Shown: piece after piece, positions 11,219 through 25,549 of the stretch | How positions within the stretch are numbered: position 1 is the first letter of the stretch | How the letters are laid out: each line of letters opens with the position of its first letter | From: a virus | IMG/VR virus record: IMGVR_UViG_3300036719_002852 | Location: 1 to 27,950 of that record | Strand: one strand, 5' to 3' | Length of the DNA stretch: 27,950 nt | Program-made: the position numbers and the translations under genes | The notes under the pieces: generated by a model | Told to the model about the DNA's origin: nothing | Seen by the model: the letters and a program-made list of their open reading frames with translations, nothing else | Database searches by the model: none

Positions 11219-11697
11219 TGAACTTTGCAGCCATTGACCCAGGGGTGAAGGGGGGAGTTGCGACGTACATCGGAGGCAAGATCGATGCATGGACAATGCC
11301 TTCCTCTCCTGTTGAACTTGCAGACCGTCTGCGTGAGCTAAATCTGTGTGGGGTTTACATCGAGGACGTTCCAAAGTTTACGGGTGTCAAAATCCCAGGG
11401 TCAATGGTTGCAGTCCTCTTCCAGTCCGTTGGCGTTGCGCTAGGCGTATGCGCTGCTCTGAAGTTACCCGTGTTCATGGTAAAGCCCAAGGAGTGGCAAA
11501 AAGCCTGCGGCGTTGGCGGACGGGAAGGGTTATCTCACGCAAAGTGGAAGCAAAAGCTACGGGACATTGCCAAGGCTAGGTTCCCTAGCATCAAAGTCAC
11601 ACTAGAAACAGCCGACGCTCTGCTGATAGCGTCCTCATACATACATGCAAATACACATACAAACAAAGCAGGGTCACAGCATCACGATACGGTTTGA
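11218..11697 (+). CDS. RuvC-like Holliday junction resolvase
   Basis: This 159-aa protein begins MNFAAIDPGVKGGVA, the first strand of the RuvC/RNase H-like fold, with catalytic Asp at residue 7. A second acidic residue follows in VYIED (E49), and a third in ETADALLIA (D133). This is the order expected of RuvC-type resolvases and fits the family's usual length. The ATG at 11218 is chosen over a GTG two codons upstream because it forms a TAATG junction with the SSB-like gene. The role would be resolving branched DNA during replication and packaging. Its 3' end overlaps the next gene by 53 bases. Confidence 0.8.
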   Translation: MNFAAIDPGVKGGVATYIGGKIDAWTMPSSPVELADRLRELNLCGVYIEDVPKFTGVKIPGSMVAVLFQSVGVALGVCAALKLPVFMVKPKEWQKACGVGGREGLSHAKWKQKLRDIAKARFPSIKVTLETADALLIASSYIHANTHTNKAGSQHHDTV

Positions 11698-12104: not shown

Positions 12105-12767
12105 ATGGCACTCGCAGTGCCATCCTGCGACGAAGCAGAGCGTGGGCTTGCAAGCATTGCTCTGAACCACCCGAACGAGTTCCTGCACGCATCGATGGAG
12201 GCAAGGCTGAGTCCAACTGACTTCGCAAACCCATTGTGCAAGATGACCGTGGAGGTTGTCCTTGAGCAGACTGCGCGGAACGCTTCTTGTGATTTGCGGA
12301 TCGTCTTTGAAAAGCTAAGGGAGAAGGACTCGTCTATCCAGCTTGCAGACGCTTCGGAGTTGTACCACTTGTGCGGGGTTGTCCAGGCCATGCCTGAGTT
12401 CATCAACTTGGTTCGAGGCGCAAGCAAGCGCAGAGCCTTGATGATGCTGGCATACCAAGCAGTCCAAGACGCCCAGGGTAACGAGCAACCAACAAGCGAC
12501 CTCATTGCCGGACTCTCCATGAAGGTGGACGCACTCATGCGGGAGACAGTTCCGCCGAAGGCAATGGACACCAAGTCGTTGCTTATAGACGCAGCAAAGC
12601 GGTATCAAGAGGGGGATGACTCCTCAATGCGAATCTCGACGGGGTTCAAAAAAATCGATGATATATGCCCCATTCGATACGGTGACTATGTGGTCATCGG
12701 GGGCGAAACCAAGAGCGGCAAAACAATGCTGGCTCTCAACATCATCAGCAACCTGTTATCAAAATGA
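12105..12767 (+). CDS. dnaB: Replicative DNA helicase DnaB, N-terminal half (Walker A part)
   Basis: This 220-aa protein aligns by eye with the DnaB N-terminal helical domain, the linker, and the beginning of the RecA-like motor. It reads STGFKKIDDICPIRYGDYVVIGG, then the Walker A loop GGETKSGKT at 199-207 and the following helix, and stops at SNLLSK. Everything after the P-loop helix is missing: the VSLEM strand, Walker B and the arginine finger. These occur 1.3 kb downstream in a separate gene. ATG 12105 is used; an in-frame start at 12069 adds 12 residues. Its stop overlaps the next gene's start (ATGA), which argues that the end is genuine. No intein sequence is present. Confidence 0.85.
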   Translation: MALAVPSCDEAERGLASIALNHPNEFLHASMEARLSPTDFANPLCKMTVEVVLEQTARNASCDLRIVFEKLREKDSSIQLADASELYHLCGVVQAMPEFINLVRGASKRRALMMLAYQAVQDAQGNEQPTSDLIAGLSMKVDALMRETVPPKAMDTKSLLIDAAKRYQEGDDSSMRISTGFKKIDDICPIRYGDYVVIGGETKSGKTMLALNIISNLLSK

Positions 12768-13851: not shown

Positions 13852-14122
13852 CAATTGGACGGTCGTTCGCGTGAGCACGGTCATCAGCAAAGCCAAGCTG
13901 CCAAGGCCGAAGATTGTCAGAAACGTAGTCCACAGAGGCACTTACGAGGAATGTATGGAGGCTAAAGAAAAAATCACATTTTCTCTAAAGCCCGTCGATC
14001 AATCGACCGAAGACATAAAGGTAGAGTTCACTGTCGTAAAAAATGGAAGAGACATCACAAGCTCAAGGCAATGGTCAGGTACTAATCGTCTCGTTGGAGA
14101 TGCCAGCGAGTCAAATCCTTGA
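13838..14122 (+). CDS. Small hypothetical protein overlapping the dnaB C-half
   Basis: The ORF (94 aa) has a strong GGAGG site 7 bases before its ATG and overlaps the exonuclease end by 14 bases, so translation is likely. The first 65 residues are basic then beta-like (STEDIKVEFTVVKNG). The last 26 residues overlap the DnaB C-half in another frame and are Ser/Arg-rich without visible structure. The original stop may have lain near 14040. No family is recognised. Confidence 0.6.
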   Translation: MEENSNWTVVRVSTVISKAKLPRPKIVRNVVHRGTYEECMEAKEKITFSLKPVDQSTEDIKVEFTVVKNGRDITSSRQWSGTNRLVGDASESNP

Positions 14123-14645
14123 CCGCCTCATTGCCAAGCAAGCCAACGTCTCATTGCGGACACTGGCTGAAGGAGTGAGGAATGAAGGGGAGTTGCGGCG
14201 CGTTGGCACAGCTATCACTAGCCTTGCGAGGACTGGGCTTGTTGTACGGGACGACCTGTACGATTTAGCCAGCATCTGCGCTACGGCACGGGCCATGGCA
14301 AAGTCAGGCGGGATCAAGGCGATTGTCGTCGATTACATCCAACTGGTGCGCCATGACCTTGGCAAAGATTCCACCCGTGAGAGGGAGGTAGCTGAGGTCT
14401 CCCGTGGATTGCGCCTGCTTGCCATGGAGCTTAAGTGCGTCCTGTTTGCAATCACCCAACTCAACGAGTCTGGCAAGGCACGGGAGTCCAGGGCGATTGG
14501 GCAGGATGCTACGGCAGTGCTCGTAGTGAAAGTCGAAGACGAAGAGTACCGTGAAATCTCCATTCCTATCCAACGTAACGGCCCCTGTGGGGTTAAGACA
14601 TCGCTCCGATTCAACGGACGAACAGCAAGCTTTGTCACTGAGTGA
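14043..14645 (+). CDS. dnaB: Replicative DNA helicase DnaB, C-terminal half (Walker B part)
   Basis: This 200-aa protein starts almost exactly where the N-half ends in a DnaB alignment. GQVLIVSLEM at 11-20 carries the catalytic Glu, VVDYIQL at 95-101 is Walker B, ITQLNES at 137-143 is motif H3, and the QDATAVLVV and QRNGPCG blocks follow. Together the halves make about 420 residues, close to a normal DnaB. An in-frame TAA at 14037-14039 blocks any upstream extension, so ATG 14043 is the only reasonable start. It has no Shine-Dalgarno site and lies inside the preceding gene. About ten residues (MEETSQAQGN) precede the helicase homology. Confidence 0.85.
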   Translation: MEETSQAQGNGQVLIVSLEMPASQILDRLIAKQANVSLRTLAEGVRNEGELRRVGTAITSLARTGLVVRDDLYDLASICATARAMAKSGGIKAIVVDYIQLVRHDLGKDSTREREVAEVSRGLRLLAMELKCVLFAITQLNESGKARESRAIGQDATAVLVVKVEDEEYREISIPIQRNGPCGVKTSLRFNGRTASFVTE

Positions 14646-15919: not shown

Positions 15920-16317
15920 GCAACTGGCAACCGATTAAGACAGAGGACCTCGTTCGGCTGTACCGCGAGGGATGGTCATTAAAACTTTTGGGTTGCGATA
16001 ACGTTTACAGCAAACGGGAAAAGCAATCTCGCCTTTTTTACGCTTCGCTGTTCACAAGCGACAACTGGGTTGGAAAACCGCCCGAGAAGAAGTGGGAGGT
16101 CGTGGAGAGAGGGATGAGTTTTTTGGCTGCAATGCATTGGCTTGAGTCAGCGCAGGATGGAATGCGGCGCTTGCGACGTGCAGGCTTCTTAATTGAAATC
16201 GTCGCACATCAAGGGATGCCTTGCTGGGTACATCAAGGAGAGGCTGACAATGCTTGCGTGTTTGACGCAGTGCTTGTCAGCGCAACCGACTGGGAAGGCT
16301 TAGAGGTGGAGAAATGA
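15916..16317 (+). CDS. Hypothetical phage protein
   Basis: This 133-aa protein starts at ATG 15916 with an AAGGAGGTG site upstream and an ATGA overlap. It opens with SNWQPIKTEDLVRLYREGW and contains an internal EGLxFxxAMxWL-like helix (MSFLAAMHWLESAQDGMRRL). It ends in a beta-like stretch (CVFDAVLVSATDWEGLEVEK). The helix resembles small phage proteins of unknown function with an FxxAL/MxxL pattern. No enzymatic motif is seen. Confidence 0.7.
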   Translation: MSNWQPIKTEDLVRLYREGWSLKLLGCDNVYSKREKQSRLFYASLFTSDNWVGKPPEKKWEVVERGMSFLAAMHWLESAQDGMRRLRRAGFLIEIVAHQGMPCWVHQGEADNACVFDAVLVSATDWEGLEVEK

Positions 16318-16706
16318 TCAACCCCGCAGAAATACGGGCGATTGTCGAGAGGATGCGGTCGCAAGGCCGCATCACCTCAGCCGAGCCGGACAAGGCAACC
16401 GACAAGCAATCCTTGTCAGTTCAGACCGTCAACCGGCAGTTGACAGTTGCAAAATGCGACCAGTGCGGGATGGAGTTTGTACCGCTCAACAACCGCAACC
16501 GGAGATGTGGCTCAGCCTGCACAAAGCGAGGAGCGTTGATGATGCGTCGCCGAAGAGGAGGACATCAGCCACTTGGAGACGAGCGGACTTGCGAGCAGTG
16601 CGGGACGAGGTTCCGGCAGATATCCATCTTGCAGAGGCACTGCCGTCCGCTTTGTACCAGGAGAGCAAGAAGTAAACGTGAAGCAAACAAACACAACAAC
16701 AGATAA
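16314..16706 (+). CDS. Protein with two C-x2-C zinc fingers (copy 1)
   Basis: This 130-aa protein starts 4 bases inside the previous gene with a GAGGTGGAG site upstream. Two zinc fingers follow a polar N-terminus. CDQCGMEF...RRCGSACTKR is at about 48-72, and CEQCGTRF...RHCRPLCTRR at about 93-117. The spacing C-x2-C...C-x3-C is like small treble-clef fingers. The C-terminus is very basic, which suggests nucleic-acid binding. It is related to the next gene. Confidence 0.7.
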   Translation: MINPAEIRAIVERMRSQGRITSAEPDKATDKQSLSVQTVNRQLTVAKCDQCGMEFVPLNNRNRRCGSACTKRGALMMRRRRGGHQPLGDERTCEQCGTRFRQISILQRHCRPLCTRRARSKREANKHNNR

Positions 16707-16707
16707 T

Positions 16708-17064
16708 ATGATAGACGCAGAAGAAGCAAAGAGGCTAGTTGCCTCATACATGGCAAAGGGACTCATTATTCCACCACCAAAACTCAAAAAAGAACCGCAG
16801 AACAGGCAGGACTACGGACAAGGAACGTGCGTTTACTGCTCCAAGGAATACAAACGTAAGTCCAAGGACAGCATTTTCTGTAGCCGCACCTGCTACGAGA
16901 CAAAGCGTAGACGGGAAAAACAGGCGCTCAATGGAGCCTTTGAGGAGATTCCCTGCATATACTGCGGAACCAAGTTTCTGCCAAAGAACCGGAACACCCA
17001 ACGCTATTGCACGCCAGAGTGTGCGGTCGAAGCATACAACTCCAGAAGAACAGCAAAGAAATGA
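16708..17064 (+). CDS. Protein with two C-x2-C zinc fingers (copy 2)
   Basis: This 118-aa protein has CVYCSKEYKRK...FCSRTCYETKRRR and CIYCGTKFLPKN...YCTPECAVEAY. These are the same finger type as in the upstream neighbour, so the two are likely paralogues. The start at 16708 follows the previous stop by 1 base and has an A/C-rich leader (CAACAGATAAT) instead of a ribosome site. An in-frame GTG at 16678 with an AGGAG upstream is the alternative. A nucleic-acid-binding role is inferred. Confidence 0.65.
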   Translation: MIDAEEAKRLVASYMAKGLIIPPPKLKKEPQNRQDYGQGTCVYCSKEYKRKSKDSIFCSRTCYETKRRREKQALNGAFEEIPCIYCGTKFLPKNRNTQRYCTPECAVEAYNSRRTAKK

Positions 17065-17339
17065 ACAGACAACAAATACTAGAGATGTGTGAAGATAGGG
17101 ACGTGGAACTCCTGCTCGCTGACGGGCTGGACGAAGCGTTCCTGGGCTTCACCGACGGATGCGAACACATGCCCCCACGGGCAATCTATAGCAAGGAGCT
17201 GTGCGTCAAAGCACTCATGGAGCAGGATGGCATGGAGGAGATCGATGCCATTGAGTATCTGGAGTACAACACCTTCTTTGCTTGGGTTGGGCCACAGACT
17301 CCCATGTTCATCAACACCAGTGAAGAGCTTTACACATGA
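17061..17339 (+). CDS. Acidic hypothetical protein
   Basis: This 92-aa acidic protein begins MNRQQILEMCEDRDVELLLADGLDEAFLG. It has a conserved-looking CVKALMEQDGMEEIDAIEYLEYNTFFAWVGPQTPMF block near the end. The pattern of a helix pair followed by EYLEYNT...A..G..TP.F occurs in small phage proteins of unknown function. It overlaps its neighbours on both sides by 4 bases. Confidence 0.7.
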   Translation: MNRQQILEMCEDRDVELLLADGLDEAFLGFTDGCEHMPPRAIYSKELCVKALMEQDGMEEIDAIEYLEYNTFFAWVGPQTPMFINTSEELYT

Positions 17340-17560
17340 ACCGTACCGAACAACTGCTGGATAGGGCCATGGCTCTCATTGATTCCATGGAGCAAAGATT
17401 GCGGGTGAGACTGCGAGACGACACCATGTCGATGCCTGGGGATAGGTCTGTACTGCTTGAGTGCGACATGCTAAAGTCTGCGGTGTACAAGGAAATCGTA
17501 ATGCCCAAATATGAAAGAGAAAGTTCGTCAAAGAAAACCTGCCACTTACAAAAGCCCTGA
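17336..17560 (+). CDS. Small hypothetical protein, 74 aa
   Basis: This is a helical, Met/Arg-rich protein (LLDRAMALIDSMEQRLRVRL) with a basic Ser/Lys tail. It overlaps the upstream gene by 4 bases (ATGA), and the last 50 bases overlap the following helix-turn-helix gene. No family is recognised. The overlap style supports expression. Confidence 0.55.
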   Translation: MNRTEQLLDRAMALIDSMEQRLRVRLRDDTMSMPGDRSVLLECDMLKSAVYKEIVMPKYERESSSKKTCHLQKP

Positions 17561-18053
17561 GTCGAGGGCAAGGCAGCTTGCGGGGCTACAGCACGTCGTT
17601 CCGTCCGACCATGTTCCAGGGACAGAGATTCAGAACGTGACCCAGCAAGGGCCGTTTGCAACGGTGACCGAGGAGATGCGTCGTCACATCATTGAACTAT
17701 ACATGCAGGGGAACAACACCACTGCTGTTGTGGCTAAGACGGGCTATTCTGCTGGCACCGTTGATGCCATCAAGGCTAGCGCTCTGGACTGTGACTCGCA
17801 ATTTCGTGAGGCGTACTACAAGCACAACCTCAAAGCCAAGCTGCAACGGGTAGCTGAAAGCTCTCTGGATAGGCTCACTGAACTCATGCCAACGCTAACT
17901 GGACGAGATGCTGCCATCACGGCAGGGGTAACCATCGACAAGCTTGTTGCGATTGATCGGACTGCTCCGGACACGCTGCATCAGCATGTTCACATTCACG
18001 GGGCGCAGGACATCTCCAAGATGTTCAACGATGCCTTGAAGCCGAAATCGTAA
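17511..18053 (+). CDS. Helix-turn-helix protein, possible terminase small subunit
   Basis: This 180-aa protein has a basic disordered N-terminus. A helix-turn-helix follows at about 57-85 (MRRHIIELYMQGNNTTAVVAKTGYSAGTVDAIKA, shown here as a region). Then comes a helical segment (LKAKLQRVAESSLDRLTELMPTLTGRDAAITAGVTIDKLVAI) and a His-rich end, HQHVHIHG. HTH plus an oligomerising helical domain and an L..G...DK motif is the usual layout of phage small terminases. It is 5.8 kb from the large terminase, which is unusual but not rare. A transcription regulator is the alternative. Confidence 0.55.
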   Translation: MKEKVRQRKPATYKSPESRARQLAGLQHVVPSDHVPGTEIQNVTQQGPFATVTEEMRRHIIELYMQGNNTTAVVAKTGYSAGTVDAIKASALDCDSQFREAYYKHNLKAKLQRVAESSLDRLTELMPTLTGRDAAITAGVTIDKLVAIDRTAPDTLHQHVHIHGAQDISKMFNDALKPKS

Positions 18054-18074
18054 ATTCAAAATTCAAAATTCAAA
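18054..18074 (+). repeat. ATTCAAA heptad array 1 (three units)
   Basis: Three exact ATTCAAA units begin at the base after a TAA stop (18051-18053). They form most of the short gap before the next start. Similar arrays occur at 18867 and 20518. Confidence 0.8.
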
Positions 18075-18083
18075 AAAATCCAT

Positions 18084-18326
18084 ATGAGAACCGAAGCTCT
18101 AGTTCCGTTCCGCGAACTGCTCTCACGCTACACTGGCATGGATGCGCCTGCCGGACTCGTTGTCCTCTCTAAGCCCTCGCAAGGGGCAGCAGCAGGGCCG
18201 ATACAGCAGATGGGGCATAACCCTGACCAGAGCGGCATCATCCCCAAGGGAGCAGGCATTTACGATGAGAACGGCAAACTGCCGAGTATCAAGGGAGCGG
18301 GGCTGAACTTCATTGCATGGGCATAG
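18084..18326 (+). CDS. Small hypothetical protein, 80 aa
   Basis: This protein has a helical N-terminus (PFRELLSRYTGMDAPAGL) and a Gly/Pro-rich rest (GAAAGPIQQMGHNPDQSG, IPKGAGIYDENGKLP). No family is recognised. Its leader is an ATTCAAA array ending in TCCAT, with no ribosome site. It overlaps the methyltransferase gene by 10 bases. Confidence 0.55.
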   Translation: MRTEALVPFRELLSRYTGMDAPAGLVVLSKPSQGAAAGPIQQMGHNPDQSGIIPKGAGIYDENGKLPSIKGAGLNFIAWA

Positions 18327-18865
18327 AATATGACGTTGTAGTCACAGACCCACCGTGGAGCTATTATGGCTCAAAGGACGGGATGGGAGATGCAGCGAAG
18401 CATTACGACCTCATGACGGATGACGCTATCTGCGCTATCCGCTATCCGCTGGCAAAGCGAGCGGTGTTATTCATGTGGACAACGTCACCGAAGCTACATG
18501 TGGCAATGAAGGCCATCGAGCAGCATGGGTTGCACTTTCGTGGGGTCGCGTTTGTTTGGGTGAAAACCAATGCGGCAGGTAAGCCGATTGGAGCGCAGGG
18601 AGTGCGTCCATCTATCACGAAGCCGTTGACTGAACTGGTGCTTGCTGCCAGCACAGTAGCAAAGGGAAGACCGTTGCCATTGCACAGTGAGAGCGTGTGT
18701 CAGACTATCTTTTCTCCCAGAGGAGCGCATTCAGCAAAGCCAGAGTCCATGCAGGATAGAGTGGAGCAGTTGTACCCAGCCGTAAGGAAGGCCGAGTTCT
18801 TTGCGCGTAGGCATAGAAATGGATGGGACTGCTACGGAGGAGAACTTGGAAACTGGAAAGCTTGA
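18317..18865 (+). CDS. MT-A70 family adenine-N6 DNA methyltransferase
   Basis: This 182-aa protein begins MGIEYDVVVTDPPWSYYG. The DPPW catalytic motif at residues 11-14 is diagnostic of MT-A70/beta-type adenine methyltransferases. FVWVKTN and KPLTELVLAAS in the middle and the C-terminal motif near WDCYGGE match the family. Its compact length is normal for phage members. It probably makes m6A in phage DNA to evade host restriction; site specificity is unknown. The gene is followed directly by an ATTCAAA array and a hairpin. Confidence 0.85.
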   Translation: MGIEYDVVVTDPPWSYYGSKDGMGDAAKHYDLMTDDAICAIRYPLAKRAVLFMWTTSPKLHVAMKAIEQHGLHFRGVAFVWVKTNAAGKPIGAQGVRPSITKPLTELVLAASTVAKGRPLPLHSESVCQTIFSPRGAHSAKPESMQDRVEQLYPAVRKAEFFARRHRNGWDCYGGELGNWKA

Positions 18866-18866
18866 G

Positions 18867-18894
18867 TTTCAAAATTCAAAATTCAATTTTCAAA
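18867..18894 (+). repeat. ATTCAAA heptad array 2 (four imperfect units)
   Basis: Four units in register (TTTCAAA, ATTCAAA, ATTCAAT, TTTCAAA) start 1 base after the TGA stop of the methyltransferase gene. Confidence 0.75.
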
Positions 18895-18956
18895 AAAGTC
18901 TGTTGTATTTCCTAGCCCAACCCAGCTAGTCTCCCGTCTGGGAAGAACGAAAGGTG

Positions 18957-18987
18957 ACTCCCCTGCACGAGTGTGTGGGGGAGTTTT
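18957..18987 (+). terminator. Rho-independent terminator-like hairpin
   Basis: ACTCCCC (18957-18963) pairs with GGGGAGT (18978-18984) across a 14-base loop that contains CAC/GTG, and is followed by TTT. It lies after the methyltransferase gene in a 316-base gap (18866-19181) that has no convincing ORF. Confidence 0.6.
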
Positions 18988-19019
18988 CCCGTTTATAGGG
19001 GGCAGCTCATGGAGTGAGA

Positions 19020-19111
19020 GGCAAGGCTTGGGGTGCGCGTGCGCGATTAATCGATCATCCACGGCAGGTCAACGGGAAAAGAGGGGGCAAAAACTTTTTG
19101 AAAAAAAAGCT
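19020..19111 (+). repeat. Noncoding cassette, copy A
   Basis: This stretch shares ordered blocks with 20697-20784: GGCTTGGGGT (19025), GCGCGATTA (19041), a GGGAAAAG-like G-run, and AAACTTTTT (19091), followed by an A-run and TATACT at 19111. The spacing from the first to the last block is 66 bases here and 62 in copy B. It lies after a hairpin and before the next gene, so a promoter or origin role is possible. No canonical -35/-10 pair is evident. Confidence 0.55.
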
Positions 19112-19172
19112 ATACTGCCCCAGCTCGCCCGCCGATAACCATTACACGCAGGGAGCACAACCCCCCTGCCAT

Positions 19173-19181
19173 ATACAGACA
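19173..19181 (+). promoter_or_regulatory. Leader motif ATACAGACA, copy 1
   Basis: ATACAGACA directly precedes ATG 19182. The same motif precedes ATG 19652 and ATG 20173. It takes the place of a ribosome site. Confidence 0.55.
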
Positions 19182-19442
19182 ATGAACACGACGACAAATA
19201 GGCGTTACTACGCCATGCAGTGGACAATGAATGCAGTGTGCGCCAACACTGGCAAACGTCACGCACGGTACTACTCATTCGCAACCGCATCCGCACGTGA
19301 TGCATGGGCCGAAGGCGGCGCACTATACCGAGGGAGCGGGTACAGAGAGAGCCTGCCAGCATCAGACTCCGAGTTACGGGCGGAGTTGTATCGCGATAGG
19401 GTTGAGGGACGCTGCGGGTTCCGAGTGGAGTGCATTGGGTAA
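19182..19442 (+). CDS. Small hypothetical protein, 86 aa
   Basis: This protein is rich in Arg, Tyr and Ala (RRYYAMQWTMNAVCANTGKRHARYYSF), with an acidic/basic C-terminus ending FRVECIG. No family is recognised. ATG 19182 is chosen because the repeated leader motif ATACAGAC ends 1 base before it; the frame is open further upstream, but that part has noncoding character. It starts an accessory block that lacks Shine-Dalgarno sites. Confidence 0.6.
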   Translation: MNTTTNRRYYAMQWTMNAVCANTGKRHARYYSFATASARDAWAEGGALYRGSGYRESLPASDSELRAELYRDRVEGRCGFRVECIG

Positions 19443-19453
19443 CCAACACGAAT

Positions 19454-19639
19454 ATGGACGAACTACCAACGTGCAGCGTGACAGGCAAACCTATGAGCGA
19501 GGGCTTTTGCTTTGGCGATGGGGAGTGGTATTGTGCCAGCGAGGAGGACGCACTCAAGGCAGTGCAGGAGATGGGCTATGCCACTTTGGACGAGGCTTAC
19601 GATGCCGGAGTTTACTACTGGTCGGAGTGGAACAACTAA
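19454..19639 (+). CDS. Small acidic protein with Cys and Trp residues, 61 aa
   Basis: The protein begins MDELPTCSVTGKPMSEGFCFGDGEWYCASEEDAL. The C-x-V-T-G-K-P-M-S-E-G-F and EWYCASEEDAL arrangement is like small zinc-binding or ParB-fold-adjacent phage proteins that begin with C..tG..l.eG.... and Y....E..l. No firm family can be given. It starts after an A/C-rich leader, 11 bases past the previous stop. Confidence 0.65.
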   Translation: MDELPTCSVTGKPMSEGFCFGDGEWYCASEEDALKAVQEMGYATLDEAYDAGVYYWSEWNN

Positions 19640-19651
19640 CATACAGACTAT
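19639..19651 (+). promoter_or_regulatory. Leader motif ACATACAGACTAT, copy 2
   Basis: This sits immediately before ATG 19652. It shares ATACAGAC with 19173 and ACATACAGAC with 20160. There is no G-rich ribosome site in this gap. Confidence 0.55.
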
Positions 19652-20137
19652 ATGACAACAACACGCACTATTAAAACAGCACTAGCTGAGTTGCAAGCGC
19701 ACGGGTACGACGCACGCCTGTCGAGAGACGGTTGGCTCATAGTCTATGGCCCGTATGGGCCAGATACATACCTCTGGGGAGCATGGTTTTCGCCCAACAA
19801 CGGTAACGACGTAACATGGGGTGAGGTGCCGCAGGAGGTTTTTGACCTTGCCTATTTTGAGGCGCGCACTGCGCTTGATGCGCTGATGCAGCATGGCAGG
19901 TGGTCACACAACGGAGCGTTGGCTCTGTTAAACCACCTTAAAATACATGAAAATCACATCGAAGGGGACGTGAACGTGAACTTTCTAGCAGACAACTGGA
20001 TTGAGTACTCGTCCGCTTTGGAAGCCGCTAAAGAGCACGGCTATGCTGCTCCGGACGAAGACGAGGCTATTGCATGGCTGAGGGCAAGAACGGTTGCCAT
20101 ACCGTTCAATGGCGGGGTTATTGTTGTCCAGTTCTAA
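19652..20137 (+). CDS. Hypothetical protein, 161 aa
   Basis: This acidic protein opens with a helix (TIKTALAELQAHGYDARLSRDGWLIVYGP). It continues with aromatic-rich strands, a helical block around 70-100, and an acidic helix near 145 (PDEDEAIAWLRAR). It ends in the hydrophobic strand GGVIVVQF. No family is recognised. It is preceded by leader motif copy 2. Confidence 0.65.
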   Translation: MTTTRTIKTALAELQAHGYDARLSRDGWLIVYGPYGPDTYLWGAWFSPNNGNDVTWGEVPQEVFDLAYFEARTALDALMQHGRWSHNGALALLNHLKIHENHIEGDVNVNFLADNWIEYSSALEAAKEHGYAAPDEDEAIAWLRARTVAIPFNGGVIVVQF

Positions 20138-20158
20138 CATTAGCACTCTGATCATAAT

Positions 20159-20172
20159 AACATACAGACAAT
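20159..20172 (+). promoter_or_regulatory. Leader motif AACATACAGACAAT, copy 3
   Basis: This lies directly before ATG 20173, and again no ribosome site is visible. It is the third copy of the ATACAGAC core within 1 kb. Confidence 0.55.
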
Positions 20173-20415
20173 ATGAACACACTGGCTTTAGAACACTTTC
20201 AAATGGCGGTCTGCCTAAATGGCAAGTGGTTAGCAATGGAAGACACGCATGGCTATGCAAGCACAATGGATATGCTAACATCAATCCGCACTATACTAAG
20301 TGCGTTTGGAGCGGAGGATGCGCCTGCTTTTTTTACCATAAACGACGATTACACACTGCGAACAACCGCTAGCAAAGTTGATGAAGCTATCAACAATTGG
20401 TGCAGCAACAACTAA
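20173..20415 (+). CDS. Small hypothetical protein, 80 aa
   Basis: The protein begins MNTLALEHFQMAVCLNGKWLAMEDTHGY, followed by a helix and a short beta-like region, and ends NNWCSNN. No family is recognised. Its leader is motif copy 3. The next ORF begins 1 base after its stop. Confidence 0.6.
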   Translation: MNTLALEHFQMAVCLNGKWLAMEDTHGYASTMDMLTSIRTILSAFGAEDAPAFFTINDDYTLRTTASKVDEAINNWCSNN

Positions 20416-20416
20416 C

Positions 20417-20515
20417 ATGGACGAGCAAGAGAACCCTTATGCGCCGTTGGCGTTTGTTATAGTGCTGCTGTTTACTTTGCTAATGCGAGGAAGCGTAGCA
20501 CTAATGCGGGATTGA
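20417..20515 (+). CDS. Candidate small membrane protein, 32 aa
   Basis: The ORF begins 1 base after the previous stop and encodes a polar acidic N-terminus (MDEQENPYAP). A hydrophobic helix (LAFVIVLLFTLLM) follows, then a basic end (RGSVALMRD). This is a clear single-pass profile with an outside-acidic, inside-basic bias. Its TGA is followed within 3 bases by ATTCAAA array 3. It is too short for standard gene finding. Confidence 0.5.
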   Translation: MDEQENPYAPLAFVIVLLFTLLMRGSVALMRD

Positions 20516-20517
20516 AA

Positions 20518-20559
20518 ATTCAAAATTCAAAATTCGAAATTCAAAAACGAAAATTCAAA
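20518..20559 (+). repeat. ATTCAAA heptad array 3 (six units in register)
   Basis: ATTCAAA, ATTCAAA, ATTCGAA, ATTCAAA, AACGAAA, ATTCAAA follow in perfect 7-base register, starting 3 bases after a stop codon. The gap from here to 20818 has no supported ORF. Confidence 0.8.
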
Positions 20560-20630
20560 AACCTCGCACATACATACACGCACCCCTGCGCACCCGCTCA
20601 CCCGTTAGCACCTGCTAGCTCCACCCCGCT

Positions 20631-20664
20631 CCACGGCAGGGAGGCCACAAAGCCTCCCCCGTGG
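20631..20664 (+). terminator. Strong long hairpin, possible terminator
   Basis: CCACGG and GGGAGGC (separated by a 2-base bulge) pair with GCCTCCC and CCGTGG around a 6-base loop, giving 13 base pairs. There is no T-run after it, so termination is uncertain. It occupies the same place ahead of cassette copy B as the 18957 hairpin does ahead of copy A. Confidence 0.5.
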
Positions 20665-20696
20665 GGTTGGTGCGTTTGGATCATGTGGTGCCGCAG

Positions 20697-20784
20697 GGCA
20701 GGGCTTGGGGTCGGGCGCGATTAGCACAGAACGGGGTGGATGCAAGGGCGAAAAGGGGGGAGAAAACTTTTTCTTTTTTTTGCT
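20697..20784 (+). repeat. Noncoding cassette, copy B
   Basis: GGCTTGGGGT (20702), GCGCGATTA (20715), a GCGAAAAGGGGGG run, and AAACTTTTT (20764) occur in the same order and near-equal spacing as in copy A, followed by a T-run. It lies before the next small ORF at 20819. Confidence 0.55.
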
Positions 20785-20818
20785 TAACCTTTGGGCCGAA
20801 CGCGCCGATTAACAGAGC

Positions 20819-20965
20819 ATGGAAGCAAACTTGTTCCTTATTTTGGCCTCACTCGATGCAGTGGGGTGTGCATGCTACGCTGGTAGCCTTTGGGCTTTGC
20901 CGTGGGGTGTCCTTTGCATGGTTTGCTATGGGTTCGGACTAAGTAAAGCTTTCAGCGGTAAATAA
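20819..20965 (+). CDS. Candidate small membrane protein, 48 aa
   Basis: The ORF encodes MEANLFLILASLDAVGCACY and then a second hydrophobic stretch (LWALPWGVLCMVCYGFGL), ending SKAFSGK. It looks like two short membrane helices with a Gly/Ser turn. There is no clear ribosome site. It is preceded by cassette copy B and followed by an AAAC-rich leader. Confidence 0.5.
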   Translation: MEANLFLILASLDAVGCACYAGSLWALPWGVLCMVCYGFGLSKAFSGK

Positions 20966-20993
20966 CAAACAAACAAATAAACAAACAGATAAC

Positions 20994-21416
20994 ATGAAGA
21001 CAAAGGAAGCACTAGTGGAAGCACTTAGGAAGTTCGTCGCTCAACGTAGCGGGATTGAATGGGGTAATTATGGCGGGAGTCGTGAAGCATTTATGGGGGA
21101 TTATCGGCAAATCCTGCGGGACGGGCGGGATGCTCGCGAGTTACTACGTCACATAGAACTGCGGGACTCAATTACAGGTGCAATGTTGGAGCAATCCCTG
21201 ACTGGACGGCTGAGTTATCGCGGCGGCGCGATTGAGTATGTCACTGGACAATATTTCCCAACGGAGTATCGGAGCGCCGTTTGCCGTGCTTTGGCTGAGT
21301 GCCTGTGGCACTGGTTGCGCTACGGCGGCGGGACGTTGGACACTAGCGCGGAAGGTATCCGTAAAACGGCAGTGCGGTGCTTTGGGCGTGGGATTGCAAG
21401 ACGCTGGTTCAACTAA
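20994..21416 (+). CDS. Hypothetical protein, 140 aa
   Basis: This Arg-rich, mostly helical protein contains FVAQRSGIEWGNYGGSREAFMGDYRQILRDGRDARELL and a C-terminal Trp/Arg block (CLWHWLRYGGG, GRGIARRWFN). The IExxNYG...Y and LLxHIxxRDSI patterns resemble small proteins of unknown function common in phages and plasmids. The leader is an A/C-rich tract with ACAGATAAC before ATG. No enzymatic motif is seen. Confidence 0.65.
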   Translation: MKTKEALVEALRKFVAQRSGIEWGNYGGSREAFMGDYRQILRDGRDARELLRHIELRDSITGAMLEQSLTGRLSYRGGAIEYVTGQYFPTEYRSAVCRALAECLWHWLRYGGGTLDTSAEGIRKTAVRCFGRGIARRWFN

Positions 21417-21433
21417 GGAAGGAGGATAACGCT

Positions 21434-22018
21434 ATGAGACCACAACTAATGGTGTCACTGTTGGCAACGTTTGAGGGCATCAACCCTGCGGATTGGTACC
21501 CTTGCGAGTCGTACATTCGCGAGATGATTCCCAAGCCTCAACATGGCTTAAGTCACACTGACGAAGAGGTGTACGAAAGCGAATATGACGAGGGACTTTG
21601 GGAGCGGTTCAACATTGCGCCGGAGGATGAGGATGAGCGGCTCGAAGCTGAAGAGAAGCTGGAAGCTGAAGGCAAATGGAAAGCATGGGATGAGCTAATG
21701 AAGGTGCAGGTTGAGGGTATCGTTCCGCTGGACGATGCGTTGGATTATCTAGACCACATTGGAGCAAGCTTTGAGGATTGCGAGACCATGGGGACGCTTG
21801 GCGGGCCGTTGGGGATTGGGATTGTGCCGGATATGTCATTCCAAACAGAAAGCCAGTTGGTGATCTCATCAATCCGGATCACGCCTTTTTGGTGCGACAA
21901 TGGCGAATGGTCGCCGCTTTCTGAGGCAAGTTGGGAGAGGTTGCGGGACTTGTTTAGGCGCCATGATTTATGGACGCTGCGGAAGATGGCGAATAACAGA
22001 GTGGAGGTGGAAGCGTGA
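21434..22018 (+). CDS. Hypothetical acidic protein, 194 aa
   Basis: ATG 21434 has a strong AAGGAGG site 11 bases upstream. The protein contains a very acidic helical segment at about 45-85 (EDEDERLEAEEKLEAEGK), a possible flexible spacer. The C-terminal beta-like domain has LVISSIRITPFWCDNGEWSPLS. No family is recognised. Its stop overlaps the GTG of the next small ORF (GTGA). Confidence 0.7.
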   Translation: MRPQLMVSLLATFEGINPADWYPCESYIREMIPKPQHGLSHTDEEVYESEYDEGLWERFNIAPEDEDERLEAEEKLEAEGKWKAWDELMKVQVEGIVPLDDALDYLDHIGASFEDCETMGTLGGPLGIGIVPDMSFQTESQLVISSIRITPFWCDNGEWSPLSEASWERLRDLFRRHDLWTLRKMANNRVEVEA

Positions 22019-22110
22019 AGGATGACGTGCTGGCTGTGGTGCTTGGTGCGGTGCTGCTGTGCGTGGTGGCGTTCATGCGAGCGTGCGGGAAGGCAGTGGC
22101 TTTAGGATAA
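22015..22110 (+). CDS. Candidate small membrane protein, 31 aa
   Basis: GTG 22015 overlaps the previous TGA and has a GGAGGTGG site. The peptide has an acidic start (VKDD) and the hydrophobic helix VLAVVLGAVLLCVVAFM, and ends with RACGKAVALG. This is a typical single-pass small phage membrane protein. Confidence 0.5.
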   Translation: MKDDVLAVVLGAVLLCVVAFMRACGKAVALG

Positions 22111-22168
22111 GACGAAAGGAGATTTGGAAGGCGTTAAAGCGTAAGCGTCCACCAAGAATCCCCCGCAA

Positions 22169-22198
22169 GCCTCAGAGGTGTCCCCTCTGGGGCTTTTT
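22169..22198 (+). terminator. Rho-independent terminator
   Basis: GCCTCAGAGG (22169-22178) pairs with CCTCTGGGGC (22184-22193) with one mismatch and a 5-base loop, followed by five T. It ends the 20994-22110 transcription unit and is the best terminator in the window. Confidence 0.8.
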
Positions 22199-22295
22199 CG
22201 TGCCTTGATGCGTCCCGTTTCTGCACTCTAACGCTGCAACCATGTCCAATTCCTGACGCAATACAATGACGCAACATGGATACATGCCATGCTCA

Positions 22296-22315
22296 GCCGA
22301 GCCGAGCCGAGCCGA
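22296..22315 (+). repeat. GCCGA tandem repeat, four units
   Basis: Four exact 5-base GCCGA units are followed by GCGGC. A period of 5 is not coding-compatible, and none of the frames through it looks like a gene. Confidence 0.7.
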
Positions 22316-22511
22316 GCGGCAGCAAAGCAGGTTTACAAATTGCAAAAGGGGGGGAGGGGGTCTCAAATCCGCTTGGCGAGAAAGCCCGAACGCATCCCCC
22401 CGCATAGATTTTTTTTGCCAAATGGCCCCCATTGCCTGTGGGATGTATCCAGCCTCCGCTGGAAACATGGTTGCGTTGCTGCGTGGCACTAGGCTAGTGT
22501 GCGCTCTGCAT

Positions 22512-22922
22512 ATGAGCACATACATCAATAGGAAAATGGCAATAGCGCAGTATGGTGTGGATCCCAGGCAGCATGAATGGGAAGCGCAGCATGTTCAGGA
22601 GCGTCCCAAGGGGACTGGCAAGGAGAAGTGGTATTGGCAGGATGCAGTGGCGAAGTTAGCGAGCAAGGATGAGCCTGCGGAGGGGGAAGGCGTAGTGGTG
22701 CTGGTGGTGCCTGACTTGCCGAAGTTGACATTGCCTTGCAATAAGGAGGAGGTGCTGCACAGCGTGGTTGTGGCAAAGAGGGCGATGAACTTCCGGTTTG
22801 TGATTGGGACAAAGGGGGAGGTTGTGCGGGTGCAGGACAATAAGCGGGTGAAGATTGGGATGCGGTTAGCGGTGCTGAACGTGTCGCCTGGGCAATATGT
22901 GACCAAGGAGGCTGTGCGATGA
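22512..22922 (+). CDS. Hypothetical protein, 136 aa
   Basis: The protein begins MSTYINRKMAIAQYGVD; ATG 22536 is an alternative start. The middle is beta-like, with GVVVLVVPDLPKLTLP and VVVAKRAMNFRFVIGTKGEVVRV. The C-terminus reads KIGMRLAVLNVSPGQYVTKEAVR. The repeated short strands suggest a small all-beta domain. It overlaps the next gene by 4 bases. No family is recognised. Confidence 0.6.
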   Translation: MSTYINRKMAIAQYGVDPRQHEWEAQHVQERPKGTGKEKWYWQDAVAKLASKDEPAEGEGVVVLVVPDLPKLTLPCNKEEVLHSVVVAKRAMNFRFVIGTKGEVVRVQDNKRVKIGMRLAVLNVSPGQYVTKEAVR

Positions 22923-23224
22923 ACGCAGCAGGGGACATGGCTGAGAAGCTTGGGTTGAAGACCAAGCAAGGGCGGGAACTGCTGTATGCTGCTGTGGAGT
23001 TAGTGCAGTTGATGGATCGGAAGCAGCAGGATTACGGGCCAAGGAACATCGATGAGTTTGGGATCTTGGGCGTAGTGGTACGGATGAATGACAAGATGGA
23101 GCGGATAAAGAATCTGCTGCGAAAGGATAAGCAAGCCTCTTGTGAGGCTTATGTCGATTCGTTCAAGGATATGGCAGGATACGCCCTTATCGGTGTGCTT
23201 TTGGAGGAGAAGAAGTGGGGGTAA
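22919..23224 (+). CDS. Nmad1 / DUF1599 family protein
   Basis: This 101-aa protein has the family signature QQDYGPRNIDEFGILGVVVRMNDKMERIKNLL. It ends with DSFKDMAGYALIGVLL, which matches the conserved D..DlagYaii helix. The family was named nucleotide modification associated domain 1 from its genomic links with DNA-modification genes. Its biochemical role is not known. A good overlap with the upstream gene and an AAGGAGG site support the start. Confidence 0.8.
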   Translation: MNAAGDMAEKLGLKTKQGRELLYAAVELVQLMDRKQQDYGPRNIDEFGILGVVVRMNDKMERIKNLLRKDKQASCEAYVDSFKDMAGYALIGVLLEEKKWG

Positions 23225-23304
23225 GAGAAGCGTTCGATTTGGACATAGCTATCTCCATTGCCTGTGCATTGTGCGTAGCTTGTTTCCTATTGCGTAGCAG
23301 GTGA
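23215..23304 (+). CDS. Candidate small membrane protein, 29 aa
   Basis: GTG 23215 lies 10 bases inside the previous gene and has an excellent GGAGGAG site 6 bases upstream. It encodes VGVREAFDLD, then the hydrophobic segment IAISIACALCVACFLL, then LRSR. The Cys-rich single-pass helix with a basic C-terminus is like small holin-type or other phage membrane peptides. Confidence 0.5.
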   Translation: MGVREAFDLDIAISIACALCVACFLLRSR

Positions 23305-23358
23305 GCCAGCGAAGTCGGGTCTTGCGGCAGCAAGAACAGACGAAGCAACGAAGTAACC

Positions 23359-23691
23359 ATGGAATACAAGGAGAGCGCGGAACTTCGGGGTCGCGCCTTC
23401 GCACGCACCCCTGCGCGTACTGCGGCTTATGCCTGCGGGGCATTCGCCCCTTCGAGCATAACCCTTGTACTTGCTAGTGTTGCCATTCTTTCTTTGTCCT
23501 TCTGCGGTAGCAGATTACATCCAGAACCCGAGTGGGAGATGAGAGAGCAGAATAAGCCCCTTCCCATAAAGAAGGAGCTTTTAATGCTTGATAGACAGAT
23601 ACATCCGTCACCGTCGCGGTTTGAATCGCTTCGCATTTTTGCCGTGGCACGAGCAGAGGTTTACCCATCAATGTACTCTAGTCTACTCTAG
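23359..23691 (+). CDS. Doubtful ORF with one hydrophobic segment
   Basis: This frame of 110 codons lies inside the hairpin-rich region. It contains a hydrophobic stretch (SITLVLASVAILSLSFCG) followed by a Pro/Glu-rich tail. That is faintly like a small lipoprotein or spanin, but there is no good lipobox or ribosome site. The N-terminal codons run through GC-rich palindromes, so it may not be a gene. Confidence 0.25.
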   Translation: MEYKESAELRGRAFARTPARTAAYACGAFAPSSITLVLASVAILSLSFCGSRLHPEPEWEMREQNKPLPIKKELLMLDRQIHPSPSRFESLRIFAVARAEVYPSMYSSLL

Positions 23692-23793
23692 CGGACTCCA
23701 CGGAAAGCAGTGCATTTGAGGCACTTCTATTAAGAGCGCGAGGCAAGCTCGCTCTCCTCTCCTTCACTGGTATGACGATTTCACTCGTAGCAT

Positions 23794-23820
23794 GACAGTT
23801 ACGCTGTCTCTATTTGAGAC
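23794..23820 (+). promoter_or_regulatory. Two mutually exclusive hairpins before terminase start
   Basis: GACAG/CTGTC (23794-23808) and GTCTC/GAGAC (23806-23820) share bases 23806-23808, so only one can form fully. Both lie within 46 bases upstream of ATG 23840. Confidence 0.4.
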
Positions 23821-23828
23821 ACCACAAA

Positions 23829-23839
23829 CATACGAACAT
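23829..23839 (+). promoter_or_regulatory. A/C-rich leader before the terminase start
   Basis: CATACGAACAT directly precedes ATG 23840. It resembles the ACATACAGAC leader of the accessory genes and stands in place of a ribosome site. Confidence 0.4.
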
Positions 23840-25549
23840 ATGGACAAAGAGCAAGAGAAAAAGTTCATGGAGCAGATTCTGAAGTTTAAGCAGGAACCGC
23901 ATCCTCTCATTCCGACAGTGAGCCAAGATCAGCGGCTCAAGATGGTGGACAACGTGGGGATTGCAAAGACCCTGGAGCTTCTTGAGATTCGCGAGAACAG
24001 GATCAAGGCAGAGCACACCGATCCCATTCGATATGGGACAGAGTTTGATTCGTGGAAGGATTCGGACAACCTTATGGGTGAGTTCAACGAAATGGTCATC
24101 CTGGGAGGAAACAGGGCAGGCAAGACCGAGTATGCAGCCAAGAGAGCAGCGCAGATGTTCGTTGGAGCAGACGTTGGCGGAATGCCGGACTGGGTCAAAG
24201 AGCGGGTAGAGCGCAGAGGCATCAGGATATGGATGCTCCACACTAGCCACTTCACAAGCGTGTCAGCGCAGCAGAACGTCTTTTACAAGTACCTGCCCAT
24301 TGAACTCAAGACGCTCAGAAAGAGCGTTCACACGCAGATCAACTACAGCCAGAAGAACGGCTTTACGGACAACACGGCAGTGTACATGGGAAACCAAGTG
24401 TGGTTCATGAACTACTTCCAGGACATCAAGGTCATTGAAGGGGGCGAAGTGGACTTCATCTGGTGCGATGAGCTGGTGCCACAGGATTGGCTAGAGACCT
24501 TGAGATACCGTCTTGTCACAAGGAACGGCAAGATGCTCATCACGTTCACGCCGCTGGACGGCTACACGAGTGTGGTCAAGGAATACATCAACTCTTCCAA
24601 GATTACGCATTGGAAACCTTCCGAACTGCTTCCAAACAACAACGTGATTGGAGTGCCAAACGGGCACATGCCATACATGGCAAGAAACGTGTTCGGCAAG
24701 CACGCCTGCATTTGGTACCATTCCAAGGACAATCCGTACAATCCTTGGCACCGAATGAAGGAGACCCTTCGCGGCAAGACAACCAACGAGATTAAGATCC
24801 GCGCATACGGCTGGGCAGAAGCAACAGCAGGAAGCCAGTTCCCATTGTTCAACGACCACAACGTGTTCAGTAAAGACCCAAGAGAGATCGAGGGCACCAA
24901 CTACATGGTTGTAGACCCAGCAGGAGCGCGGAACTGGTTCATGCTTTGGGCAAGAGTGGATAAGAACGGGGTCATCTGGGTGTACAGAGAATGGCCAGAC
25001 CAAAGCTACGGAGAGTGGGCGTTGCCGTGCGAGAAGCCAGATGGCAAACCAGGTCCAGCACAGAGAAGCTCCGCAGGCAGGGGAGTTGACGAGTATTCGT
25101 TGCTCATCCAGACGCTGGAAACAGACGACAAGACACGCGAAGAGATCGTCGAACGCTACATTGACCCCAGAAGCGCAGGGACAGCAGCAATGACCAAGGA
25201 AGGCGGCGTAACGCTCCTTGATATGCTCTCAGACGCTCATGTGCCACTGTACTTCATTCCGGCAGCGTCAGCAAACGTGGATGAGCGTGTCCTCGTCATC
25301 AACGACCTCCTGTGCTATGATAGGGAGAAACCCTTAGAGGAAGGCGTGAACTTCCCAAGATTAATGATTCATGAGAGTTGCCAGAACCTCATTTACAGCA
25401 TGAGAGAGTGGACTGGAGCAGACGGGCAAAAAGGTGCTAGCAAAGACCCTATTGACGCACTAGGATATTTGGTAATGATGAGTCCGCAACATCAGGGAGC
25501 AGCAGACGAGTTCATAAAGGCGGGACAAAAATTTGCAGGAGCGTACTAA
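23840..25549 (+). CDS. terL: Terminase large subunit
   Basis: This 569-aa packaging motor has Walker A GGNRAGKT at 89-96 and Walker B VDFIWCDE at 204-211. Its C-terminal RNase H-like nuclease shows acidic residues in VVDPAG (D359), YIDPRSAG (D442) and SKDPIDALGYLV (D536, D539). The length is typical. ATG 23840 is preferred because the region upstream forms two hairpins and an A/C-rich leader. ATG 23792, in frame, would add 16 residues. It cuts concatemers and drives DNA into the prohead through the portal encoded next, and the two overlap by 1 base. Confidence 0.9.
   Translation: MDKEQEKKFMEQILKFKQEPHPLIPTVSQDQRLKMVDNVGIAKTLELLEIRENRIKAEHTDPIRYGTEFDSWKDSDNLMGEFNEMVILGGNRAGKTEYAAKRAAQMFVGADVGGMPDWVKERVERRGIRIWMLHTSHFTSVSAQQNVFYKYLPIELKTLRKSVHTQINYSQKNGFTDNTAVYMGNQVWFMNYFQDIKVIEGGEVDFIWCDELVPQDWLETLRYRLVTRNGKMLITFTPLDGYTSVVKEYINSSKITHWKPSELLPNNNVIGVPNGHMPYMARNVFGKHACIWYHSKDNPYNPWHRMKETLRGKTTNEIKIRAYGWAEATAGSQFPLFNDHNVFSKDPREIEGTNYMVVDPAGARNWFMLWARVDKNGVIWVYREWPDQSYGEWALPCEKPDGKPGPAQRSSAGRGVDEYSLLIQTLETDDKTREEIVERYIDPRSAGTAAMTKEGGVTLLDMLSDAHVPLYFIPAASANVDERVLVINDLLCYDREKPLEEGVNFPRLMIHESCQNLIYSMREWTGADGQKGASKDPIDALGYLVMMSPQHQGAADEFIKAGQKFAGAY

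Follow-up and report, generated by a model that had tools for sequence, protein, structure and literature searches.

How does a phage start its small genes where the Shine-Dalgarno (SD) sequence is missing from some of them and present before others? This question is raised by a 27,950-base virus record (IMGVR_UViG_3300036719_002852, positions 1 to 27,950; hereafter the window), in which a preliminary description had seen a repeated A/C-rich leader before several ATG codons and read it as a second style of translation start. Comparing this stretch with its relatives, we propose, with a probability of about 0.68, that the short motif in these leaders would act as an SD-independent translation-start signal of small accessory genes in one phage lineage, travelling with exchangeable cassettes.

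The word ATACAGAC occurs three times in the window (19173, 19641 and 20162), 1-3 nt before the ATG codons at 19182, 19652 and 20173, exactly where it had been described. No further copy lies on either strand; 0.47 copies were expected, and three were reached in 1 of 100 shuffles. A wider motif search, which the preliminary description had named as the test of its own claim, revealed enrichment at starts. In a four-sequence set made of the window and three relatives (about 148 kb, both strands), 17 of the 18 copies of ACATACAG lie just before the ATG of an open reading frame (ORF) of at least 25 amino acids (aa), at a distance of 0-6 nt, and the same 17 score when the cut-off is set at 40 aa. 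All 18 are on the coding strand (0/18 on the reverse), and the lone copy away from an ATG is without the final GA. When all 8-mers before ATG were ranked without bias, CATACAGA and ACATACAG, which are one-base shifts of each other, came top, both ahead of the SD word, with AGGAGGTG fourth. Among 840 letter permutations of ACATACAG, the true word was extreme, with 17/18 copies before ORFs vs 255/3784 for the others pooled (binomial). Counting distinct families instead of copies, 9 of 10 were before ATG in the four genomes (p about 3e-10). Three of the 17 copies belong to the exoVIII family, where the match falls inside the ORF; a BLAST protein alignment runs through the motif there, and these copies were discarded as start tags, leaving 14 of 15 before ATG. 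The occurrence of the motif is real and strongly non-random.

Relatives were collected with the ORF at 23840, which was taken for terL on inspection by eye of its ATP-binding motif and of its position before a portal-sized gene. Among the best 80 of 467 relatives on viral contigs, four matched at 100%, two at 91-92%, 19 at 84-90% and the rest near 65%. Bacterial genome contigs gave one relative (65%), on a contig of a Pedosphaera metagenome-assembled genome (MAG), which hints at a verrucomicrobial host. The consensus across copies is ACATACAGA(C/T), ending 0-4 nt before ATG. Three relatives of 33-45 kb, whose records may be incomplete, match the pattern ACATACAGAN{1,5}ATG 7, 6 and 2 times, and 20 matches are spread over 7 of 13 further records; the pattern gave none in seven 65%-terL records and none in the Pedosphaera MAG, and a reversed control pattern had no match in the first 11 records or in the further 13. 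Two 87% terL relatives, L012 (63 kb) and L011 (29 kb), had no motif match; they hold little sequence upstream of terL, and the arrays described below may be absent from their sequenced part. A scan of the viral collection found the motif in at least 120 stretches, with one match apiece in the 80 listed. A related string, CATACATAC-ATG, stands at 11636-11647 of the window before the ORF at 11645, and again at 7131 of L010 before an array B gene; it is possibly a G-to-T variant of the motif.

The motif genes sit in two small-gene arrays, A and B, in the interval from an MT-A70 gene to terL. Tiling ORFs over the two arrays of six records yielded 60 genes, of which 24 carry the motif or ACAGA, 20 an SD, seven are coupled and nine have none of these; the tiling was simple, and it began three first genes at a GTG and merged MTLEQ and MKTTSI of L017 into one gene. 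An SD match of at least 4 was found in none of the 24 motif genes vs 20 of the 36 others (Fisher p 2e-6). Genome-wide on the four sequences, a home-made gene caller that misplaced some small starts gave 0/16 motif starts with an SD vs 66/194 others (p 0.003); the strong GGAGG sites that had been credited to the other genes are thus true of a minority, counted as SD matches of at least 4. A natural swap occurs at the MTWKIQ/MNWKIQ gene, which is preceded by CATACAGACATT-ATG in L016 and L017, and by GAGGAGGCCAA-ATG (GAGGAGG) in L021 and L025; between L016 and L021, 146 of 150 gene bases are identical, and just 5 of 20 in the leader upstream. The motif thus stands in the place of the SD before ATG and excludes it, which, together with the swap, we take as evidence for action at translation. 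Motif genes that stand behind another array gene are set off from it by 12-36 nt. Most SD and coupled genes, by contrast, overlap the preceding gene or lie within a few nt of it; the motif therefore marks genes that need a start of their own.

The leaders themselves are about 80% A+C and poor in G. The mean predicted minimum free energy of the -30..+30 region was -3.2 kcal/mol for motif starts, -9.5 for SD starts and -13.2 for random ATG codons, with predicted unpaired fractions of 0.67, 0.48 and 0.45, respectively; this predicted lack of structure is a further argument for action at translation. ACA triplets are also dense: 67 in 16 motif leaders vs 31.6 in shuffles (0 of 2000 shuffles as high), with no excess in SD genes (50 vs 48.7 shuffled).

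Gene order in the arrays differs among relatives, being MKRT-MKVY-MKTT-MSTN in L014, MSTN-MTLE-MKTT-MKVY-MTWK in L017 and MSTT-MKTT-MKVY-MNPK-MNWK in L021. Where one gene stands behind different neighbours (MSTNDQ, MKTTSI in L014/L016, MKVYSV and MKNKVT), identity spans the gene, the spacer and the motif and then drops to chance level: in these four pairs, 131-150 of 150 gene bases match, and upstream of the motif 9-12 of 40. In the MKTTSI pair of L014 and L021, the leader is a shifted variant (6/20 match ungapped). In L020, the MKVYSV reading frame is down to 14 codons with its leader kept; by all appearances the gene was removed and the leader left behind. Read from these junctions, the motif appears to be the 5' boundary of the moving unit. 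The earlier suggestion that the genes differ in origin holds if they are taken as exchangeable cassettes, and position, strand, SD exclusion, the many unrelated genes concerned and the SD swap give good support to a second style of start that belongs to one gene set.

Is the word itself general, or only the style of leader? Some 65% relatives have comparable small genes with G-free A/C-rich leaders made of other words, for example AACACACTACAAA-ATG, suggesting that the style (A/C-rich and SD-less) is older than the word. G-free 20-nt leaders precede 1.80% of starts in the 65% relatives vs 0.38% of background 20-mers, and 0.48% vs 0.29% in the near group; the clear enrichment is confined to the 65% relatives, and that of the near group is weak because the motif itself contains G. 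The pattern ACACACTACAN{0,9}ATG gave five matches in 4/9 records of the 65% group and none in three near records. We favour a general loading mechanism, the word having probably been copied within the lineage. The candidate host order (Pedosphaera) holds 31 matches of the motif vs 14 of the reversed control in 58 genomes, and a signal borrowed from the host was rejected as far as that order is the host order.

The motif would thus act in translation as follows. An unstructured, G-poor and ACA-dense leader would allow the 30S subunit to load without anti-SD pairing, probably via ribosomal protein S1 together with ACA-type enhancer effects; the ACA-rich leaders, taken with the literature on ACA and S1, suggest S1 as a candidate partner, and both the promotion of initiation by the motif and the S1 step are proposed from sequence comparison. 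With a compact start signal of its own, each gene could be deleted, inserted or moved within the arrays with translation kept, and the exact sequence may be kept partly by recombination between copies. Several points weigh against this interpretation. The copies in related phages are not independent; 9 of the 60 array genes have no motif, SD or coupling; and an in-frame upstream GTG, a possible start, is present in the first genes of L010, L014 and L021. Upstream of the motif proper, the ACA excess is weak (22 vs 16.3, P 0.07), so that much of it is the motif itself. An alternative pairing site on 16S rRNA was rejected: the longest match was 6 nt in 8/8 genes of the Pedosphaera order (the true host may differ), permuted motifs did equally well (P 0.63-0.71), and a normal anti-SD is kept in all eight. 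S1 and A/C-richness alone do not account for a near-invariant 9-mer, and the word may hold less information than its conservation implies.

That near-invariance, where A/C-richness alone would do, could instead reflect the binding site of a trans-acting regulator (a phage protein or small RNA), the motif serving as a translational on/off operator for the cassette set. The variable spacer and upstream flank fit such a site, as does the restriction to the lineage (31 vs 14 control matches in the 58 host-order genomes, and absence from the seven 65%-terL relatives). No candidate for such a regulator emerged, though no experimental search for one was made; ACATACAG has no reverse-strand copy and hence no simple antisense match, and the other A/C-rich leaders before comparable genes of some distant relatives fit a general mechanism. 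We regard a regulator site as unlikely. About as unlikely is a private initiation code, in which a dedicated factor, encoded by the phage or consisting in a modified state of the host ribosome, would recognise ACATACAGA and admit the tagged genes to translation, so that a gene captured behind the tag would join the regulon at once; in a special form of this idea, a host MazF-type nuclease would cut at the ACA beside the ATG, yielding leaderless messages translated under stress.

The motif could also owe its conservation mainly to cassette recombination or descent and not to initiation, as a junction for recombination or as a relic that hitch-hikes, in line with the end of homology at the motif in the four shuffled pairs and with the leader retained before the 14-codon frame of L020. 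A junction has no need to sit 0-4 nt from an ATG, to exclude the SD or to be unstructured, and the family of the gene at 20994 keeps the motif in 4/5 members while spacer and flanks change; we regard this explanation, too, as unlikely. Finally, the motif might be an element of a promoter or of a leaderless transcript, so that each gene is transcribed from its own start; the array genes are separated by gaps, if only short ones, and TACAGA and CATACA within the motif loosely resemble a -10 box by eye. However, the arrays already open with a shared promoter-like block, and a spacing of 0-4 nt would place the -10 box over the start. The first gene of array A is preceded by the promoter-like block, then by the hairpin and then by the motif next to the ATG; relatives carry in the place of the hairpin a stem GACGGG..CCCGTC or AGCGAGG..CCTCGCT, complementarity being kept across three record groups. 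With such compensating stems upstream of it, the motif is most likely part of the transcript. We consider a promoter role very improbable and retain the SD-independent start signal as the preferred reading.

The features of the array region are given in Table 1. From the MT-A70 gene to terL, relatives hold different small genes, many headed by ACATACAGAC or ACATACAGAT, and CCGATTWACAGAGC is conserved before the first array B gene in L009, L021 and L010. The proteins downstream of the motif cluster into 19 families; leaving out terL, exoVIII and MECLDE, where the match falls inside a longer ORF, and the doubtful window gene at 16708, 15 remain. In Pfam, only the MT-A70 protein passed the cut-off among 10 window proteins, and 0/10 proteins of relatives matched at 0.01; PHROGs matches of array proteins were weak or of unknown function.

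Table 1. Features of the window around the two small-gene arrays.
Feature	Position	Strand	Remarks
Terminator-like inverted repeat (ACTCCCC..GGGGAGT, T run)	18957..18984	+	closes the preceding module; read from sequence
Promoter-like boundary (AACTTTTT, A run, TATACT, GCCGATAACC)	19092..19140	+	putative function
Hairpin GCAGGG..CCCTGC	19148..19169	+	between promoter-like stretch and first motif
Motif copy ATATACAGAC	19171..19180	+	1 nt before ATG 19182
Array A	19182..20515	+	5 tiled genes, 3 with motif; content or order differs among relatives compared
Gene	19182-19442	+	86 aa; opens array A
Motif copy ACATACAGAC	19639..19648	+	3 nt before ATG 19652
Gene	19652-20137	+	161 aa; array A
Motif copy ACATACAGAC	20160..20169	+	3 nt before ATG 20173
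Gene	20173-20415	+	80 aa; array A
Related block before array B	20761-20811	+	resembles the 19092..19140 boundary
Short ACAGA	20812..20816	+	2 nt before ATG 20819; weak relation to motif
Array B	20819..22110	+	4 tiled genes; ACAGA before the first two, SD before the last two
Gene	20819-20965	+	48 aa; opens array B
ACAA-repeat leader ending in decayed motif ACAAACAGATAAC	20965..20993	+	before ATG 20994
Gene	20994-21416	+	140 aa; orthologues in L009, L021, L024 and L206 with ACATACAGAC
terL	23840..25549	+	leader A/C-rich without SD (ACAAACATACGAACAT-ATG); motif not conserved in orthologues, not counted as copy
Holliday-junction resolvase, exonuclease VIII-like protein, DNA methyltransferase, DnaB-like helicase (two pieces)	window		PHROGs

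The arrays are opened by boundary blocks (19070-19140 for A, 20743-20811 for B) made of a G-rich stretch, AAAACTTTTT, a -10-like hexamer and GCCGATTA; the two are likely a lineage-specific promoter. Repeats of the AATTCAAAATTCAAAA type lie past the last stop codon of a module (18053-18077, 18874-18896 and 20515-20557), in relatives too.

Six sites had been listed in all, three of them as looser forms. The one before 20994 (ACAGATAAC) is a decayed copy, since 4/4 orthologues in other records carry ACATACAGAC; the motif is intact in 4/5 members of this family, and the spacer and upstream repeats differ in length. The other two are not convincing copies. At 16708 (ACAGATAAT), the leader is the coding end of the ORF 16314-16706 (...HNNR stop); a GTG at 16678, in frame and preceded by AGGAG, is an alternative start. 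At 23840 (CATACGAACAT), a plausible start follows an A/C-rich leader without SD, but the motif is not kept in orthologues. The position 23792 was dropped as a terL start: in those relatives that have an ATA codon, the corresponding ATG does not share the reading frame, and this part of the window belongs to a base-paired element. The ORFs 16314-16706 and 16708-17064 adjoin and look by eye like paralogous zinc-ribbon proteins; PHROGs matches of the second are weak (HNH and unknown).

The base-paired element upstream of terL (23767-23820) is conserved and structured: over 17 relatives, pairing holds in 96.1% of cells, and 28 cells carry changes on both sides, against a mean of 8.5 in shuffles (0/500 shuffles as high). 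It has no match in Rfam; a site for packaging and a leader RNA are possible roles. A second hairpin upstream of terL, GTCTC-TATTT-GAGAC, is replaced elsewhere by GGTTC..GAACC, GTGACC..GGTCAC or GCAACC..GGTTGC. Further upstream, the DnaB-like replicative helicase is split into two ORFs (12105-12767 and 14043-14645) that cover PHROG 19 positions 158-378 and 379-578, the break lying just past the Walker A half and the exonuclease VIII-like ORF standing between them; this order is identical in 7/7 sequences compared (6 distinct records, L029 lying within G005), 65% relatives included.

A literature search that left out most subscription journals found no description of an SD-less start-associated repeat. 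If the motif acts as proposed, it explains in a simple way how small genes can be plugged into phage arrays, and it bears on gene callers that score SD strength. In enteric bacteria, ACA triplets enhance initiation at the yifK and dppA mRNAs, where replacing ACA lowers expression, and the discussion of that work cites ACAA repeats active without an SD and ACA in S1 ligands (PMC3879156). The leaders here likewise have ACA triplets clustered near the start; unlike them, the yifK and dppA enhancers act beside an SD and are a GcvB target, whereas here a fixed sequence without SD precedes many genes. Bacteroidetes have unstructured A-rich starts without SD, for which S1 is proposed, with single-position preferences (PMC6847099). 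The unstructured SD-less leaders here are similar, A/C-rich where those are A-rich, but that is a phylum-wide rule, while SD genes stand in the same phage here (66/194 other starts with an SD).

Nearest in arrangement is the start-associated sequence (SAS) of cluster K mycobacteriophages, a short asymmetric start repeat with the consensus GGGATAGGAGCCC and an SD core AGGAG, present in 11-19 copies per genome and accompanied upstream by 17-bp imperfect inverted repeats (extended SAS, ESAS; PMC3203893). Cluster EF Microbacterium phages have start-associated sequences too (PMC7302621), and the phages of both clusters are unrelated to those studied here. The SAS shares with our motif an asymmetric repeat a few nt before ATG, in one orientation, before many families of non-structural genes, as well as rarity in host genomes and a function unproven in both. 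Unlike the cluster K SAS, the motif has the consensus ACATACAGA and no SD (0/24 motif array genes with an SD match of at least 4), and it has 2, 7 and 6 pattern matches per relative of 33-45 kb, records that may be incomplete. In place of the 17-bp ESAS repeats there is a 6-7 bp hairpin with compensating stems, before the first genes of array A only. The motif resembles the SAS in its working but falls outside the cluster K set. Citrobacter phage Mordin has a 26-bp start repeat upstream of eight hypothetical genes (PMC4611695); it too precedes hypothetical genes and, starting with CCAACA, has an A/C-rich 5' part, but it differs in sequence and holds the SD-like CTGGAGAA. The role of phage start-associated repeats has been open since 2011, and in 2025 a survey covering 188 phages of cluster K still asked for experimental proof of function (PMC12699233). 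As far as these accounts go, the cluster K, cluster EF and Mordin repeats have an SD or SD-like part by which they overlap the ribosome-binding site, and an effect on ribosome binding is hard to tell from any other. The motif described here is short, has no SD and is naturally swapped against an SD in front of one and the same gene, so that the question can be put to a direct test.

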